Assembly (NCBI GenBank): GCA_003221035.1
Contig: QHUB01000035.1
Location: forward strand, 1-64,000
Length of the DNA stretch: 64,000 bases
Reading direction: 5' to 3'
DNA from: Gemmatimonadota bacterium
GTDB taxonomy: Bacteria; Gemmatimonadota; Gemmatimonadetes; Gemmatimonadales; GWC2-71-9
The translations under genes were made by a program, and so were the position numbers. Below the pieces are notes generated by a model. That model was not told where the DNA came from. It searched no databases and worked only from the letters and a program-made list of their open reading frames with translations. This document shows, piece after piece, positions 6,443 through 13,178 of the stretch (position 1 is the stretch's first letter; each line of letters begins with the position of its first letter).

Positions 6443-9139
6443 GTGTCACAACTCGCATTGACGCTCGCGATCCTTCTCCAGAATCCGCAGGCCGCTCCTC
6501 CTCAGCCCAAGCGGGAGATTCCCGACCCCGGTGTCATCGCCACCGAGCAGCGCGTCACGCCCGCAGGGGTGCAGAGCGTGTTTACCGATCGGGTCTTTGG
6601 TGTTCGCTTCGCCGCGAAGCCGGGCGAGCTCTGGGTCACGGTCCATGGCGCGGCCTATCGGCTGGCCTGGCAGGACAATGTCGTGCGGGCGAGCGCGGCA
6701 TTCGACGGGCGCTCCGGGGTGCAAGGGATCGCGATCGATCCGGTGACCGGCCGGGCGCTGTTCAGCACCGTGGGACGGCTGCCCCAGGCGATCGCGCAGA
6801 GCCGGACTCCCGGATCGGACGAGATGTCGCAGACGAAGACCGTGACGCAGTTGACGGCCTATGACGGCGATCGGGACAGCCTGACGGTGCAGTGGTCGAC
6901 GGCGGCACCGGGGGACTTCATCGCCGGCTCGCCCGCGATCGCGGCGCACGCGAACTCCACCGGCAAACGCCTGGCAGTGCTGCCGCTCCCCGCGAATGAT
7001 GCACTCGCGGTATTCGACGCCGACAGCGGCAAGCTGCTCAAGACAATTCCTCTGGGCGTGCTGCCGGTGGCTGCGGTCATCAGCCCCGATGGCGCAGTTG
7101 CATACGTCTCGGTGCTCGGCGGCAGGAAGCCGCGGGCCCAGGAGCGCGCGGCAAAACAGTGCTGTGATCCGGCCGCGGAGCTCGTGCGCATAGACGCGCG
7201 CGGCATCGCGCAGCCTGGCAATGTGACACGCGTGGATCTCGTGACCGGCACGACGACCGTGATTCCAGTCGGCCGCCATCCCACCGGACTCGCCTGGGAC
7301 CAGCGCGGCGCACGGCTCTACGTCGCCAACGGCAACTCCGATACCGTCAGCGTGATCGACACGCACCGCAACGCGGTGGTGCACTCGATCACCGTCGCGC
7401 CGTTCCGCGAACGCAAGATCGGGCTCGCGCCGACCGCCGTCGCGCTGGCGCCTGACGCGAAGACGCTGTTCGTCGCGCTGGGCGGGGCGAACGCCGTCGC
7501 CATGTACAACCTGCCGGCCGGCACGCTGCGCGGCCTGATTCCGACGAGCTGGTATCCGTCGAGCCTCGATGTGAGCGCGGACGGCCGCACGCTGGCCGTG
7601 GGGTCGCTGTTCGGAGTGGGCTCGGGGAATGGCCGGCGGTCGGGTCAGACCCGTCGCTACGTGCATTCCTATCGCGGCTCGGTGAATGTCATTCCCGTGC
7701 CGGGGGATGTGGAGCTCTCGGCCTACACGACGTCGGTCGCGCAGAACAATCGTCTGACGCTGGCGACGGACAGTGTGCTCGTGCTCGCGCCGCGGCGCAA
7801 CGTTGCCCCCCGCGCGGTGCCCGAGCGCCCGGGCGAGCCGTCACTCATCGATCATGTCATCTACATCGTGCGTGAGAACCGCACCTACGACCAGGTGCTC
7901 GGCGACATCGGCAAGGGGGCGAGCGACAGCTCGCTCGTGCAGTACGGGCGCGACGTCTCGCCGAACACGCATGCGCTCGCCGAGCAGTTCGTGCTGCTCG
8001 ACCATTTCTTCGCGTCGGGCGGCAATTCGGCCGACGGGCACAACTGGCTCACGCAGGGACGCGAGACCGAGTATCCGATGTGGCCGCTCTATTTGGGCCG
8101 CAGCTATCCGTCTGAGGGAATCGATCCGCTCGCGTACTCGTCGGGCGGGTTCCTGTGGGAAGCGGCGCAGGCGAAAGGCAAGACGGTCACGGTCTTCGGC
8201 GAGTACGCGCCGTCGCCGCCATGGGACAGCTCGAGCGTCCGGACGGCGCTGTTGACGCAATATCGAGACTCGCAGCCGCACAACCCGGCTGTCTTCCGCC
8301 GGCTCGTCGCGCAGCGGTACACCACGCGATCCGACATTCCATCGCTCGACCGAGCGCTGGTGCGCGAGTATCCGGGTTGGACCGAGACGGTACCCGACGT
8401 CGTGAAGGCAGACATCATCCTCGAGCATCTGCGCGAGTGGGAAGCGAAGCACGCCATGCCGAACCTCGTGCTGATCATCCTCCCGAACGATCACACCCAG
8501 GGCACGAGCCCCGGGTGGTGTACGCCCAAGGCATGCGTCGCGGACAACGATCTGGCGCTGGGCCAGATCGTCGAGGGGCTGTCGCACAGCTCGTTCTGGA
8601 AGTCGATGGCCATCGTCGCCGTCGAGGACGACGCGCAGGACGGCGTCGATCACATCGATGGGCACCGCACCGTGGCGCTGGTCGCGAGCCCATACGCGCG
8701 GCGCGGAATCATCGATCCGACATTCTACAGCCAACCCAGCCTGGTGAAGACGATCGAGCTGATGCTGGGGCTGCCGGCGCTCAGCCTGTTCGATCTTGTC
8801 GCGACCGACATGCGCGCGAGCTTTATCGGCCCCGACGAGACGCCGAACTTCGCGTCGTACGCCGCCCTGGTGCCTCGACAATCGCTTTTTGATGTGAATC
8901 AACAGGTAGGGTCAATCACCGGACCGCACGCCGCCGAGCGGCGGCGCGCCGCGGCCCAGTCAGCGCGGATGAATTTCCGTGAGCCGGATGCGGCGCCGTC
9001 GGAGCTGCTCAACCGGATTCTGTGGCACGACGCTCGCGGTTGGGGCTTGCCCTATCCGGAAGTCAAGCGCTCGCTGTTCTTCCCGATGGCGGTGGATGTC
9101 GAGGACGAGGATCGGGAGGAAGTCGGCCGAGATCGGTAG
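6443..9139 (+). CDS. Secreted YVTN/YncE-type beta-propeller fused to an alkaline-phosphatase-fold phosphoesterase
   Basis: An 898-residue protein starting at GTG 6443 with AGGAA just upstream. A hydrophobic N-terminus precedes a seven-blade-like propeller (about 40-430) with YVTN-type motifs such as RLYVANGNSDTVSVIDTHRN. The C-terminal half (about 465-850) is the acid phosphatase/phospholipase C-type phosphoesterase family: HVIYIVRENRTYDQVLGD carries the metal-binding and nucleophile region, HFFASGGNSADGHNW follows, and VEDDAQDGVDHIDGHR carries late metal ligands. It probably hydrolyses an extracytoplasmic phosphoester; the substrate is unknown. Divergent from the DUF5916 gene and convergent with the GlsB-type gene. 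Confidence 0.9.
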   Translation: MSQLALTLAILLQNPQAAPPQPKREIPDPGVIATEQRVTPAGVQSVFTDRVFGVRFAAKPGELWVTVHGAAYRLAWQDNVVRASAAFDGRSGVQGIAIDPVTGRALFSTVGRLPQAIAQSRTPGSDEMSQTKTVTQLTAYDGDRDSLTVQWSTAAPGDFIAGSPAIAAHANSTGKRLAVLPLPANDALAVFDADSGKLLKTIPLGVLPVAAVISPDGAVAYVSVLGGRKPRAQERAAKQCCDPAAELVRIDARGIAQPGNVTRVDLVTGTTTVIPVGRHPTGLAWDQRGARLYVANGNSDTVSVIDTHRNAVVHSITVAPFRERKIGLAPTAVALAPDAKTLFVALGGANAVAMYNLPAGTLRGLIPTSWYPSSLDVSADGRTLAVGSLFGVGSGNGRRSGQTRRYVHSYRGSVNVIPVPGDVELSAYTTSVAQNNRLTLATDSVLVLAPRRNVAPRAVPERPGEPSLIDHVIYIVRENRTYDQVLGDIGKGASDSSLVQYGRDVSPNTHALAEQFVLLDHFFASGGNSADGHNWLTQGRETEYPMWPLYLGRSYPSEGIDPLAYSSGGFLWEAAQAKGKTVTVFGEYAPSPPWDSSSVRTALLTQYRDSQPHNPAVFRRLVAQRYTTRSDIPSLDRALVREYPGWTETVPDVVKADIILEHLREWEAKHAMPNLVLIILPNDHTQGTSPGWCTPKACVADNDLALGQIVEGLSHSSFWKSMAIVAVEDDAQDGVDHIDGHRTVALVASPYARRGIIDPTFYSQPSLVKTIELMLGLPALSLFDLVATDMRASFIGPDETPNFASYAALVPRQSLFDVNQQVGSITGPHAAERRRAAAQSARMNFREPDAAPSELLNRILWHDARGWGLPYPEVKRSLFFPMAVDVEDEDREEVGRDR

Positions 9140-9151
9140 CCGCTCCAGCGT

Positions 9152-9394
9152 CTAGGTCTTTTTGAGCGCCCGCGCCAGCGCCACGAGCGCGATCGCTCCG
9201 ATCGTCGCGACGATGATCGCGCCCAGCGTCCCGTAGGCCGCAATACCGACCAGCCGGAACAGGAAGCCGCCGACGACGGCGCCGATCACGCCGAGCACGA
9301 TATCTCCGATGACTCCGTAGCCCGAGCCCTTCATGATCTTGCCGGCAAGCCAGCCGGCCACCAAGCCCACGAGGAGCAACCAGATCAGAACCAT
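9152..9394 (-). CDS. GlsB/YeaQ/YmgE family (transglycosylase-associated) membrane protein
   Basis: An 80-residue protein with three predicted membrane helices rich in Gly and Ala. It shows the family pattern GLVAGWLAGKIMKGSGYGVIGD near the N-terminus (short portions GWLAGKIM and GDIVLGVIGAVVGG). Family members are small inner-membrane proteins associated with general stress, with no biochemical role established. The start is supported by AAGGAAGGG ten bases upstream of the ATG. It follows the Spy/RidA gene by 53 bases on the same strand. Confidence 0.88.
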   Translation of the reverse strand: MVLIWLLLVGLVAGWLAGKIMKGSGYGVIGDIVLGVIGAVVGGFLFRLVGIAAYGTLGAIIVATIGAIALVALARALKKT

Positions 9395-9447: not shown

Positions 9448-10422
9448 TTAGGGCCTTCCTCCCCAGGCCGTTCCACTCACGGAGATTAACGCCCCGTCGC
9501 GTGCGAGCGACTGCGTTCCCACAACCGTGACAACTGGCGGATTCGAGCCAAGAAATGCCGTTCCCGCCTCACGCAGCGTTGCGAGGTCGGCAGGCTTGTA
9601 ATTGACGACGTAAATGGTGAGCGCCGTGACGTCGCGCGGCGTGGCACCAGCCGCTTGCAGCATCGTCGCGAGGTTCGCGAACGCGCGCACCGCTTGCGCG
9701 TGCAGATCCGATCCGACGAGCGCGCCAAGACTGTCGACTCCGAGCTGGCCGGTGATGTAGAGCGCCCGTCCCACGCGCACTGCCGCCGCGCCGAGATCCG
9801 GCCCGGCAATGGCCGCCGGCGCTGCAAGTGCGGTCTTGAACTCCGGCGTGCTCGCGCGGGCGCCCAGGCTCCCGCCGTTTGCGCCGCGGAAACTCGCCTC
9901 CGCCCAGCGCACCTGATCAGCGCGATGGCGCTGCTCAGCGGCCTGGTCCTCTCCTGCGCGCCATTTCTTGTATTGCTGCAGTTGATCGCCGCTCAGAAAG
10001 CGATGCAGGTCGCTCTCGAACCGGTCCTGCCGCGCTTTCAATTCCTTCCCGAGGTCCTGCACGCGCTCGACGTAGAACAGCGCGGCGGAGCGATCGCCTT
10101 CGTCCAGTCGTTCGTTCATTTTGGCCAATTCGCCCGTCGCACTGTCGCGCATCGGCTGCGTCGTAACCATGAAGGAGTCGTATCTCTGCTTGTATTGCGC
10201 GGCTTGTGTATCGGAGAGCTCGAGCAGCGTGCGGGCCCGTGCCGTGTCGAGCGGTCCCGTCAGCTCGACACCGGGGAGCTTGGGGGCTTGTGGCGCATAG
10301 CGCCCACCCTCCATCCCCCCGCGGCCGCTCCCTCCTCCGTAGCCTCCGCCCATTTGGGCGGCAGCGACGGTGGGAAGCACACCTGTTGCGGCAAGAAACG
10401 CGAGTGCGACCGACCATCTCAT
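9448..10422 (-). CDS. Secreted fusion of a Spy/CpxP-like helical region with a RidA (YjgF) domain
   Basis: A 324-residue protein with a good Shine-Dalgarno (AGGAGA) and a signal peptide ending VAAAQ. Residues 24-45 are Gly-rich. Residues about 55-175 are long helices in the style of Spy/LTXXQ periplasmic chaperones (LELSDTQAAQYKQRYDSF; DRFESDLHRFLSGDQLQQYK). Residues about 195-324 are a RidA-fold domain (VGRALYITGQLGVDS, AVRAFANLATMLQAAGA, TALTIYVVNY). The catalytic Arg of bona fide RidA enamine/imine deaminases is not found at the expected P-A-R site, which here reads NPPVVTVVGTQSLARDG. Deaminase activity is therefore doubtful and the domain may bind ligand only. Periplasmic location is inferred from the signal peptide. 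Confidence 0.8.
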   Translation of the reverse strand: MRWSVALAFLAATGVLPTVAAAQMGGGYGGGSGRGGMEGGRYAPQAPKLPGVELTGPLDTARARTLLELSDTQAAQYKQRYDSFMVTTQPMRDSATGELAKMNERLDEGDRSAALFYVERVQDLGKELKARQDRFESDLHRFLSGDQLQQYKKWRAGEDQAAEQRHRADQVRWAEASFRGANGGSLGARASTPEFKTALAAPAAIAGPDLGAAAVRVGRALYITGQLGVDSLGALVGSDLHAQAVRAFANLATMLQAAGATPRDVTALTIYVVNYKPADLATLREAGTAFLGSNPPVVTVVGTQSLARDGALISVSGTAWGGRP

Positions 10423-10546
10423 GCTGGCTCTCCTGGTGCTGAAGCGATTGGCAGGACCGACGAACGTACGTACGACTGATGCACGTGCTCAATGTTACGT
10501 CGCGCTGGCAGTTTCTGTTGAGGAGTTTCCAGCGCCTGAAACCGAA

Positions 10547-12568
10547 TCATGCCTGCCGCGCGCATTTCAAGTCGTGGGTCCGTTTGCGCGCGAACTCCGC
10601 GCGCCCCCCGAATGGCGCGGGCGCTCCCGACCAGTTTCGCGCCACGGCGGCATAGGCCGCGCATACGTTACTGCGCTGCGCAGATCCTCCTCTCGAGCGG
10701 TCGAGCAGTCGTGCCAGGCGCCAACGCGCTACCGTGCCGAAGGCCCAATCGACTTCCGCCGCCTGCGGGCGATCGGTGGGCAGACCCACCAGGGCCAGAT
10801 GCTCGTGCCACATCAGCTCGGACTTGGCCCCTTCAACGTCGCCGAGTTGCGCACGCCACTTGGAGCGTTGCAGGTGAACGATGGCGCGAAAGAACGGGTC
10901 GGTACGGGTCGCATCGTCTACAGGAACTTGATCGAGCAAGTACACGGCGGCGGGCTGCCGGCCCGCGGCCGCGAGTGAATCAGCCGAGAGATAGAGTTGG
11001 AGTGCGCTGGGCGCGGCGTCGCGCAGTGGTGTGGGGCGGCCGAGCAGCGTGCTCATCCAGCTCGCGCGATCGCGGAGTATGGAATCGGTCCCCGGGCTGG
11101 CGATCAACCCGCCAAGCTCGTCGAGCACGCCGGCCGTATCGACGCTGCCGGGATCGACGAACGCGAGTGCCGCCGGCAATTCCGCGTTGAAGAGCTCGAT
11201 CTCCGTTTCGGGCGAGACCGCGGCCAGCCGGCCGGCCAGATCGTGGATCTGGTCCATCCGCCCGAGTGCCACGTCGCCGAGGATTTCGCCGATCAGACCG
11301 GCGCGTTGCAACTCGTGCGACGGCTGCTTCTCGATCAGCGCGCCCAGGTAAATCGCGCCCCGCGGCACGTCGAACGTCGGAAGCAGCCGCGGACCTGCGC
11401 CAAAGTCCGGATTCTTCTGTGTCGCGGCATCGCCGGCGACCTGGTTGGTGATTTGCTGCGCCGCCTTCTCGGGAAGAAAGCGCCACGCAAAGCCGACATA
11501 GAGTAACGCCCGGAGCCCGCGGGAAAACTCGTTCGGGGCGGTGCTGTGGGTTTCCAGCGAATGCAGTGCATTGTCCGCGCCGCTCGAGTCGCCTTCGGCG
11601 ATCGCGGCCCACGCGAGGTGCTCCCAGGCGGGTCCGTAATCAGGCCGCAGTCGCGCGGCCTGCGCGAAAGCCGGGAGAGCTTCGGCACGCCGATGCCCGA
11701 GCAGAGGTCCGCGATGGAACAGCTCGTCCCCGAGCTGAAACCATCCGAGGAAGTCGTCGCGAAACCCTTCGGTGACTGCGCGCAAGGTGTCCAGCCGGGC
11801 GCGCAACGGGAGTGCAGACGCGCGAATGATGTTCCGATACGGCGGCGGCAAGGAGTCGGCGTGAATCGAGTACCGCCGGACGCGCTTGGAATCGGGCTCG
11901 TGCCCCAGCCACCGTCCGACTTCCGTGATCCGCCACGCGCAAATCCAGCAGCTCGAATCGGCGCGCTCCGCCTGTCGAAACGCGCTGTCCGCCCGCTCCC
12001 ATTGGCTCTCGGCGACAAACTGCTCTCCTTCGGCAAAACCGATCAGTCCCAGGAACCTGCGGGGTAACGCGCTCGCGGGGAGTGCTCCTACAAGCGGACT
12101 GCGACTCGCCGAGATGGACAACGCGATCTGATAACTGATCGAGTCGTGCAACGTTGACGTTTTATCGAGGGCGGCATGGAATTCGGAGGGAGGAATTCCA
12201 CCCGCCAGTCGTACGATGACCTCGCTGCCCGTCACCGTCATTCGAGCTTGCACGGGAAGCGCAGGGGATGCCGAGTCGCTGAAATTGACATGCGCGCCAA
12301 GGTCCGAGCGCACACTGCATAGCAGAGAGTTTGCTCGAGCGGCGTATTTGCTCGGTCCTTCGTAATTGATATGGGCAAACGCGACGGCCGGCGCGCGGAG
12401 CCTGGGCTGCGGGACTCCGCAAGCTTCCTCGTCGTTATGACGGATTATCCACCACCCAATGCCGAGAAGCACCACCGCTCCGACAATTGCGGCAGTGAGC
12501 TTGGGCGGAATGGGAGGGACGCCACGTGGCTCCAATGCCTGCCGGAGGTCGGAAGGTGAGGTTGTCAT
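10547..12568 (-). CDS. Membrane-anchored TPR-repeat protein of unknown function
   Basis: A 673-residue protein using the ATG at 12568 (MTTSPSDLRQALEPRG). The frame stays open 35 codons upstream, but that Cys-rich stretch is the shadow of the neighbouring gene. One membrane helix (AAIVGAVVLLGIGWWII, about 25-42) precedes a large extracytoplasmic part. Residues about 55-170 form a small beta/alpha domain, and the remainder is helical with TPR-like units (ESQWERADSAFRQAERAD; ALPAFAQAARLRPDYGPAW). The layout resembles the C-terminal sensor half of Gemmatimonadota Ser/Thr kinases or CadC-like regulators without the kinase or DNA-binding part; that comparison is from memory. It starts 25 bases after the stop of the gene at 12594-13178. 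Confidence 0.75.
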   Translation of the reverse strand: MTTSPSDLRQALEPRGVPPIPPKLTAAIVGAVVLLGIGWWIIRHNDEEACGVPQPRLRAPAVAFAHINYEGPSKYAARANSLLCSVRSDLGAHVNFSDSASPALPVQARMTVTGSEVIVRLAGGIPPSEFHAALDKTSTLHDSISYQIALSISASRSPLVGALPASALPRRFLGLIGFAEGEQFVAESQWERADSAFRQAERADSSCWICAWRITEVGRWLGHEPDSKRVRRYSIHADSLPPPYRNIIRASALPLRARLDTLRAVTEGFRDDFLGWFQLGDELFHRGPLLGHRRAEALPAFAQAARLRPDYGPAWEHLAWAAIAEGDSSGADNALHSLETHSTAPNEFSRGLRALLYVGFAWRFLPEKAAQQITNQVAGDAATQKNPDFGAGPRLLPTFDVPRGAIYLGALIEKQPSHELQRAGLIGEILGDVALGRMDQIHDLAGRLAAVSPETEIELFNAELPAALAFVDPGSVDTAGVLDELGGLIASPGTDSILRDRASWMSTLLGRPTPLRDAAPSALQLYLSADSLAAAGRQPAAVYLLDQVPVDDATRTDPFFRAIVHLQRSKWRAQLGDVEGAKSELMWHEHLALVGLPTDRPQAAEVDWAFGTVARWRLARLLDRSRGGSAQRSNVCAAYAAVARNWSGAPAPFGGRAEFARKRTHDLKCARQA

Positions 12569-12593
12569 GCAGCGCCTGAACTTTTCTCGACGC

Positions 12594-13178
12594 TCAGCGC
12601 AGGCGGGGCAGCTTGGGTGGCTTGGGTCCGTGACGCACGGCGCCGCGCACGGGCACGCAGTCGAGCTGCACACCGCCGCGCGCGCAGCGCAGCAGCAGCC
12701 CGCCGCGGCTCATGTCGCCGCGACCCGCGAACGTGGCGGGGAAGAGCAGGCGGTCACCGAACACATGCAGGAGCGGACCGACGTACTTGTCCGTCGCGAC
12801 GGAACCGAGCAGGACGACGCGATCTTCCGCTGCGAGCCCCGCGTGCAGCCGGGTCGCATCGCGGACCAGCGGGTCGCGGAATGCGGCGACGCCTTCATCG
12901 ACCGACACGGACGCCATCTGTCGCAGATCTTCGACGCGGATCAGCAGATCCGACGGCAAGAGGCCGCGCCCGGGTGCGATGACGTACGCACTCCCGAACG
13001 TGGTCGCATACGCCAGCTTCCCGCGGAAATAGAGACTACTCATGAAGGTGAAGACTTCGCCGAGCGGCGCGCCACCATTTGTGAGACGAGCCGTCAGCGG
13101 GCTGGTCTGACTCTTGAGCAGCATCTGCGCCCGGGTCCCCGCGCAACTCGCCGGCGAGAGCAAAAACACCGTCACCAT
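12594..13178 (-). CDS. Conserved protein of unknown function, coupled to exonuclease III
   Basis: A 194-residue soluble protein beginning MVTVFLLSPASCAGTRAQML. The N-terminal SPASCAGTRA and the SSLYFRGKLAYATTFG segment look like strongly conserved family blocks. I remember similar unnamed proteins from several phyla but can assign no function. The start ATG shares one base with the stop of the exonuclease III gene (TAATG on the minus strand), so translation is coupled. That context makes a nucleic-acid-related role thinkable but unproven. No membrane segment or signal peptide is seen. Confidence 0.75.
   Translation of the reverse strand: MVTVFLLSPASCAGTRAQMLLKSQTSPLTARLTNGGAPLGEVFTFMSSLYFRGKLAYATTFGSAYVIAPGRGLLPSDLLIRVEDLRQMASVSVDEGVAAFRDPLVRDATRLHAGLAAEDRVVLLGSVATDKYVGPLLHVFGDRLLFPATFAGRGDMSRGGLLLRCARGGVQLDCVPVRGAVRHGPKPPKLPRLR

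Follow-up and report, generated by a model that had tools for sequence, protein, structure and literature searches.

On the minus strand of the window, by which we mean the whole stretch of 64,000 nucleotides analysed, positions 10422..9448 hold an exact ATG-to-stop reading frame whose product, 324 aa long, is an apparently exported LTXXQ-Rid fusion; all features of the gene given below are on that strand. A ribosome-binding-like site, AGGAG, can be read from the sequence 7 nt 5' of the ATG (10430..10434). The N-terminus of the protein, MRWSVALAFLAATGVLPTVAAAQ, was judged by eye to be the signal peptide that the preliminary description had proposed; it would cover residues 1-22 (10357..10422), with cleavage at AAA/Q. 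A leader of this kind opens all 12 full-length fusion rows of alignment A1, the window protein included (the 13th row, L043, is broken by a contig end), and Q23 reaches a conservation of 90% or more in that alignment. There follows a Gly-rich stretch at residues 23-49 (10276..10356), with Gly at 11 of its 27 residues; similar stretches are also found in unfused N-domain proteins.

Residues 50-182 (9877..10275) were assigned by profile and fold comparisons to a four-helix domain of the LTXXQ/CnrX/ZraP/Spy-like kind, with two LTXXQ-like motifs placed by profile alignment and model: LSDTQ at residues 69-73 (10204..10218), in the turn between helices 1 and 2, and LSGDQ at residues 143-147 (9982..9996), in the turn between helices 3 and 4. 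After a short linker comes a Rid (PF01042) domain, assigned by Pfam and fold, at residues about 199-320 (9463..9828). The architecture is not a product of chance, since it is kept in 12 further copies that are 41-74% identical.

Three neighbouring genes were observed. Directly downstream, at 9152-9394 on the minus strand, is a gene for a small Transgly_assoc membrane protein; an operon with this gene was considered and dropped, as a tblastn search of 20 loci at E 1e-4 turned up no relative of that gene. On the plus strand, 6443-9139 encodes a protein of 898 aa with a YncE/PQQ-type beta-propeller region joined to a phosphoesterase domain, relatives of which lie near the fusion in five of the six other loci of the genus that were searched. 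Upstream of the fusion, 10547-12673 (minus strand) encodes a protein of 708 aa that probably contains a membrane segment and shows a weak resemblance to TPR sequences, and relatives of this protein are present in L046 and L047.

A helical N-terminal domain joined to a Rid domain

Pfam and NCBIfam scans of the N-terminal half returned nothing over cut-off. Below the cut-offs, the window's N-domain matched DUF6687 (E=0.014), DUF6712 (E=0.093) and, at E=0.14 and 12.7 bits (cut-off 29.2), Metal_resist. Among 19 N-domain relatives, tallied irrespective of cut-off, there were weak Pfam matches to DUF4890 (four, best E=9.2e-5), Metal_resist (four), TetR_C_1 (three), LTXXQ (two, best E=0.0034) and, in fewer members, to others. 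A match to ribosomal protein L10 (E=5e-4 in two of the 19) was judged to be noise. When the 19-sequence N-domain profile was compared using hhalign with ltxxq1, a set of six LTXXQ/Metal_resist proteins from related genomes (of which L100 falls short of the Metal_resist cut-off and L066 exceeds none but that of LTXXQ), the two aligned at a probability of 95% with E=3e-8, as calculated for one pair compared, and with both LTXXQ motifs in register. With ten sequences the probability was again 95% (E=5e-8), the fusion rows by themselves gave 86% against ltxxq1, and the sets ltxxq2 and ltxxq3 gave 23% and 76%; reversed controls gave 0.1-0.6%.

The AF2 model of residues 56-186, predicted with no alignment, has a pLDDT of 83 and consists of four helices, with both LTXXQ-like motifs at helix breaks. 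In the VIA comparison of this N-domain model, CnrX holds ranks 1-8 (Z 9.5-10.1) and ZraP rank 9 (Z 9.1, rmsd 1.3 over 77), at Z values of 8-10 that are moderate for helices; a Z below 13 may reflect a common helical arrangement. NccX, Spy and CpxP follow at ranks 30, 31 and 35, with Spy at Z 8.0 over 88 residues and CpxP at Z 7.8 over 106, and ranks 10-29, above Spy and CpxP, are mostly unrelated helical proteins (Z 8.1-8.9). Foldseek returned no match to the N-domain model at E=0.001 or better; its first three matches were Shroom2 or its complex, and CnrX was fourth (E=0.37, prob 0.97). Searched against PDB sequences with hmmsearch, the N-domain profile gave four matches at E 0.53-2.4, none of them an LTXXQ structure. 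The Spy/LTXXQ-like helical region of the preliminary description is supported by the hhalign match to ltxxq1 together with the CnrX and ZraP ranks.

The metal ligands of CnrX-type metal sensors are conserved His/Cys residues. None are conserved among the 19 N-domains, in which no column has His or Cys in six or more sequences, and a metal-sensor reading of this domain was set aside for that reason. The window's N-domain shares with CnrX/NccX (Metal_resist) and ZraP a helical fold and two LTXXQ-like turns, but differs from them in having no conserved His/Cys and in being fused to Rid. With Spy and CpxP it shares the four helices and the LTXXQ-like motifs; in contrast to Spy, with its basic cradle, it has no basic excess (21 K+R residues and 23 D+E residues), and in contrast to both it is followed by a C-terminal Rid domain.

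For the C-terminal half, residues 213-317 match PF01042 with E=2.5e-14 (53.7 bits, cut-off 27.3), and the TIGR00004 Rid hydrolase model scores the protein at 42 bits, below its cut-off of 106.25. The full-length model, built from a four-sequence alignment, has a mean pLDDT of 60 and modest means of about 37-71 for the Rid blocks; its first Foldseek match is 5v4f (YyfB of Yersinia pestis; E=3.3e-6, prob 1.00), and VIA places YabJ in its top row at Z 13.1, where rows within 1 of each other count as tied. Structure prediction of the two halves, as the preliminary description had called for, thus gave a CnrX/ZraP-like helical N-domain and a Rid fold in the RidA-type half. The Rid half also remains conserved in sequence, with 29 of the 41 invariant A1 columns lying within residues 217-319.

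The genome encodes four PF01042 proteins, one of which, L003, keeps the PAR-S motif (PARSTV). Aligned with this protein, the window's residue at the catalytic Arg105 site is Val298 (9529..9531), in NPPVVTV. Across 33 aligned Rid domains, a set that leaves out the unfused L021, L022 and L024-L028 and adds L013, L116 and L117, Arg occupies this site once, in L003. It is lost from all 13 fusion rows (four V, four A, two I and one each of T, M and L), while the 14 unfused rows of the same family have G (11) or L (three) and three named relatives, two from Bacteroidota and one listed as a proteobacterium, have Ser. The Tyr17 site holds Gly, Val or Ser in the 13 fusion rows (Gly211 in the window) and Phe in all 14 unfused rows, and the Glu120 site holds Ser or Ala in all 27 same-family rows (Ser314 in the window), so that Arg105, Tyr17 and Glu120 of the RidA deaminase subfamily are all replaced in the window protein. 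According to the available text of PMC4433059, Ala at the Tyr17 or Glu120 site of Salmonella enterica RidA has little effect, which leaves the Arg as the residue that counts; position 105 is reported as the determinant of deaminase activity in the corresponding portions of PMC4433059 and PMC5619798. The preliminary description was right that the Arg is not conserved, but its view of this loss as unusual does not hold, for subfamilies Rid4-Rid7 are described as having no such Arg while keeping Glu120, and about 10% of RidA proteins as carrying Ser there (PMC4433059, as far as its available text goes). With the Rid family and its Arg-less subfamilies Rid4-Rid7, the nearest solved chain being 5v4f, the window protein shares the Rid fold and the replaced catalytic Arg; it differs from them in being apparently exported and fused, and in having Glu120 replaced.

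A basic residue recurs at the position of Asn88. Arg284 of the window protein (9571..9573) occupies this position, at which Arg, Lys or His is found in 29 of 30 clade rows: 12 of the 13 fusion rows have Arg and the remaining one (L013) has His, every one of the 14 unfused rows of the family has Arg or Lys, and two of the three named relatives have Arg, the third (L035) having Val. Outside the clade, the position is Asn in L003 and Gly in L002 and L004. Arg284 lies four residues past the site aligned with Phe147 of AtRidA, an active-site residue according to the available text of PMC4960622, and its side chain may point into the Rid pocket.

The trimer interface appears to have changed as well. 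In AtRidA, K136 and E182 form a salt bridge of the trimer, and assembly is severely impaired by K136A (PMC4960622, in its available text). The equivalents in the window protein are Ala267 and Ser316. Of the 14 unfused same-family rows, 12 have K or R opposite D and the other two have H/D and Q/D, and the three g36 fusion rows pair R with E or D; both sides of the pair are gone (A/T/S with S/A/G) in all ten g1, g4 and g5 fusion rows, the window's among them. That both sides change together supports the mapping of the two positions and indicates an altered interface in the g1/g4/g5 fusion lineage. A trimer in the window's lineage is doubtful because the salt-bridge pair is absent and because of the reported effect of K136A on AtRidA.

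Distribution of the fusion and gene neighbourhoods

When the same architecture was sought in other genomes, as had also been proposed, a fusion spanning both halves was found at 13 places in 11 of the 102 genomes of the family (its own included), representing 4 of 41 genera. The carriers are seven of the ten g1 genomes plus G016, G017, G086 and G087; G007 has two copies, one of them broken by a contig end, and a 61-residue piece in G006 that is 70% identical to residues 263-323 was excluded from the count. In a phylum sample of 395 genomes, 40 gave a match at E<=1e-12, and the fusion was confined to the same 11. A 16S search of the window's own genome gave no match; the phylum would be Gemmatimonadota. 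No confirmed relative was found on viral contigs, and an exact-peptide scan of genome contigs yielded three unfused Rid relatives and no fusions. In a Rid tree of 32 rows (without the unfused L021, L022 and L024-L028, which were also left out of alignment A4, and with L013 and L116 added to the tree), the 13 fusion rows fall on one side of a branch supported at 91/88 and present in 89% of 200 bootstrap trees. The fusions form one group on this tree, most simply explained by a single fusion event.

Each half also occurs as a separate protein. Six unfused N-domain proteins of 165-209 aa (L033, L037, L038, L040, L041 and L042) have a leader by eye, and in all 18 unfused Rid genes of sister genera (L015-L032) the leader, again by eye, ends in a lipobox-like x-A/G-C (LAC in L031). 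The nearest unfused Rid relatives of the fusion, which have likewise no Arg, thus look like lipoproteins. Two of the three named Rid relatives, L034 and L036, have a leader; these are the Bacteroidota Rid proteins at L034:4869-5324 and L036:3304-3756, and in L034 the Rid gene comes after a GH30 glycosidase gene.

Neighbourhoods of the fusion, with genes called by a simple codon-position script rather than a gene finder, were compared at 11 loci in ten of the 11 genomes, with G005 left out. L050 (G017) is the one locus where an LTXXQ-like gene stands apart from the fusion, in the same orientation and about 50 nt upstream of it, with a Pfam match (E=0.0095) below cut-off. G087 (L044:7722-9769) has two different fusion genes in tandem, with TetR, OEP, HlyD and AcrB genes downstream of them; downstream of the fusion in G086 are a TetR gene and a C-terminal AcrB-type piece of 219 aa. 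For the window's genus, sister-genus queries for sigma, LTXXQ and pump genes gave no tblastn match adjoining the fusion, the sole weak match, at L047, falling on the fusion itself. Elsewhere in the window's own genome, on another contig (L101:4984-9278), tblastn shows a row of genes (ECF sigma, Metal_resist, TolC-like, HlyD-like) that recalls a sensor of the CnrX type together with an efflux system; no Rid match adjoins this sigma/Metal_resist/TolC-like module.

Around the unfused Rid genes, an LTXXQ/Metal_resist-type gene lies within 1.5 kb at 10 of 18 loci (L015-L032), a count in which four of the ten positive loci are themselves query sources (L105, L106 and L110, equal to L023, L026 and L029, and L055, equal to L017), and in which, as in the tblastn comparison for the window's genus, absence of a neighbour weighs less where a flank stops at a contig end. 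Among the LTXXQ queries, L105 is over the Pfam cut-off and L106 just under it, and L110, with no Pfam match at E 0.05, is counted as kin because it resembles the other queries. An ECF sigma gene of one type, checked with Pfam on one, is present at seven of the ten loci. Metal_resist matches number 0 to 4 in each of 41 related genomes of about 3 Mb, from which a chance neighbour within 1.5 kb is expected at less than about one percent per locus; the genera share history, and the neighbourhoods perhaps amount to one or two independent associations. As a control, none of the three other Rid loci of the window's own genome has an LTXXQ/Metal_resist-type neighbour.

The order in G012 (L113), from the same simple script, is an LTXXQ-type gene, two further genes, Rid on the minus strand, and then sigma, a small gene and Metal_resist on the plus strand. 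The cluster of LTXXQ-type, Arg-less Rid lipoprotein, ECF sigma, small and Metal_resist genes was observed at L113:4578-8917 and at L055, L111 and L112; its Metal_resist protein has a hydrophobic N-terminus, and the cluster is a possible envelope-stress module of the sister genera in its own right. In G053, an unfused N-domain gene has as neighbours a Metal_resist homologue and an ECF sigma gene of that one type, and the Rid gene is on a different contig.

A possible role in envelope stress

The reading we prefer, to which we would give about an even chance, is that the fusion is a non-enzymatic periplasmic envelope-stress protein whose LTXXQ domain binds clients or a partner and whose Rid domain is a scaffold with a remodelled pocket. 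The protein would be exported through Sec and released into the periplasm by signal peptidase I. Its LTXXQ domain would act as in Spy, CpxP, ZraP or CnrX, binding unfolded clients or a membrane partner, and its Rid domain, having lost imine hydrolysis, would serve as an oligomerising scaffold, so that a Rid trimer would carry three arms, at least ancestrally. A ligand, anionic or a metabolite, might be bound in the remodelled pocket, which Arg284 would make basic. The neighbourhoods of the unfused relatives in sister genera point to membership of both domains in an envelope-stress regulon of the ECF-sigma/Metal_resist or efflux type. A chaperone role is plausible by analogy, because Spy is a stress-induced periplasmic four-helix chaperone (available text of PMC8144458) and N-chlorination turns E. 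coli RidA into a holdase, described as protecting cytosolic proteins (available text of PMC4284807); the Rid fold is common to the two cases, with cytosolic clients there and only a possible holdase role here. On a broader scale, we tentatively propose, while judging it somewhat unlikely as a whole, that lipoproteins and LTXXQ fusions together make up an exported Arg-less Rid clade within an ECF-sigma/LTXXQ/efflux stress system, former imine hydrolases that would now serve as periplasmic ligand-binding or chaperone modules and whose pocket Arg would stand at position 88 instead of 105.

Part of the same evidence could be read differently. The protein could be a sensor or adaptor, its Rid pocket binding, on the periplasmic side, a small toxic metabolite or an efflux substrate and its CnrX/CpxP-like helical domain relaying the signal to a pump, a kinase or an anti-sigma factor. 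The N-domain has its best structural match in CnrX, which its PDB title calls a metal sensor, unfused Rid genes adjoin ECF-sigma/Metal_resist genes, the fusions of both g36 genomes adjoin TetR and AcrB-type genes, and the basic residue at position 284 is conserved; however, the 19 N-domains have no conserved His/Cys and so no metal site of that kind, and tblastn found no such regulator adjoining the fusion in the window's genus, and we consider this reading rather unlikely. It is also improbable, to a further degree, that the Rid half is a degenerating passenger retained as a fold alone, with the LTXXQ domain doing everything. The losses would be progressive, taking the Arg105 and Glu120 sites in all 27 same-family rows, the aromatic residue at the Tyr17 site in the 13 fusion rows, and the salt bridge in the ten g1/g4/g5 rows, and unfused N-domains exist, but the invariant columns concentrated in the Rid half and the persistence of unfused Rid relatives as likely lipoproteins argue against it.

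Very unlikely, in our view, is an exported imine/enamine deaminase whose carboxylate-binding Arg would sit at position 88 (Arg284) rather than at 105. A basic residue at 88 in all 27 same-family rows, with Arg in two of the three named relatives, would fit such a move, as would a position four residues past the Phe147 site, which places it on the same helix face (AtRidA, available text of PMC4960622), and the replacement of Tyr17 and Glu120 counts little against it given the small effect of their Ala variants (available text of PMC4433059). Against this stand the role of position 105 itself as the activity determinant, as reported in what is available of PMC4433059 and PMC5619798, and the replacement of all three residues in the window protein.

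A literature search for exported or LTXXQ-fused Rid proteins returned no such paper among the matches listed; OngD, the 127-aa RidA protein of PMC9537276, was considered and is not an exported case as far as the available text of that paper goes. Both kinds of domain are known, and what is new is the exported fusion architecture and the link to LTXXQ genes by neighbourhood, both absent among the literature matches listed. New as well are the lipoprotein-like, Arg-less character of the nearest unfused Rid relatives, the separate occurrence of the helical half, the basic residue at the Asn88 position and the two-sided loss of the interface pair in the window's lineage. The Arg-less Rid4-Rid7 subfamilies are called mysterious in the available text of PMC4433059, their roles being unknown when it was written. 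An apparently exported Rid clade that is linked to LTXXQ proteins by both fusion and neighbourhood offers a concrete candidate role outside metabolite repair, and suggests that the holdase behaviour of RidA (PMC4284807, available text) could have a natural counterpart in the periplasm.
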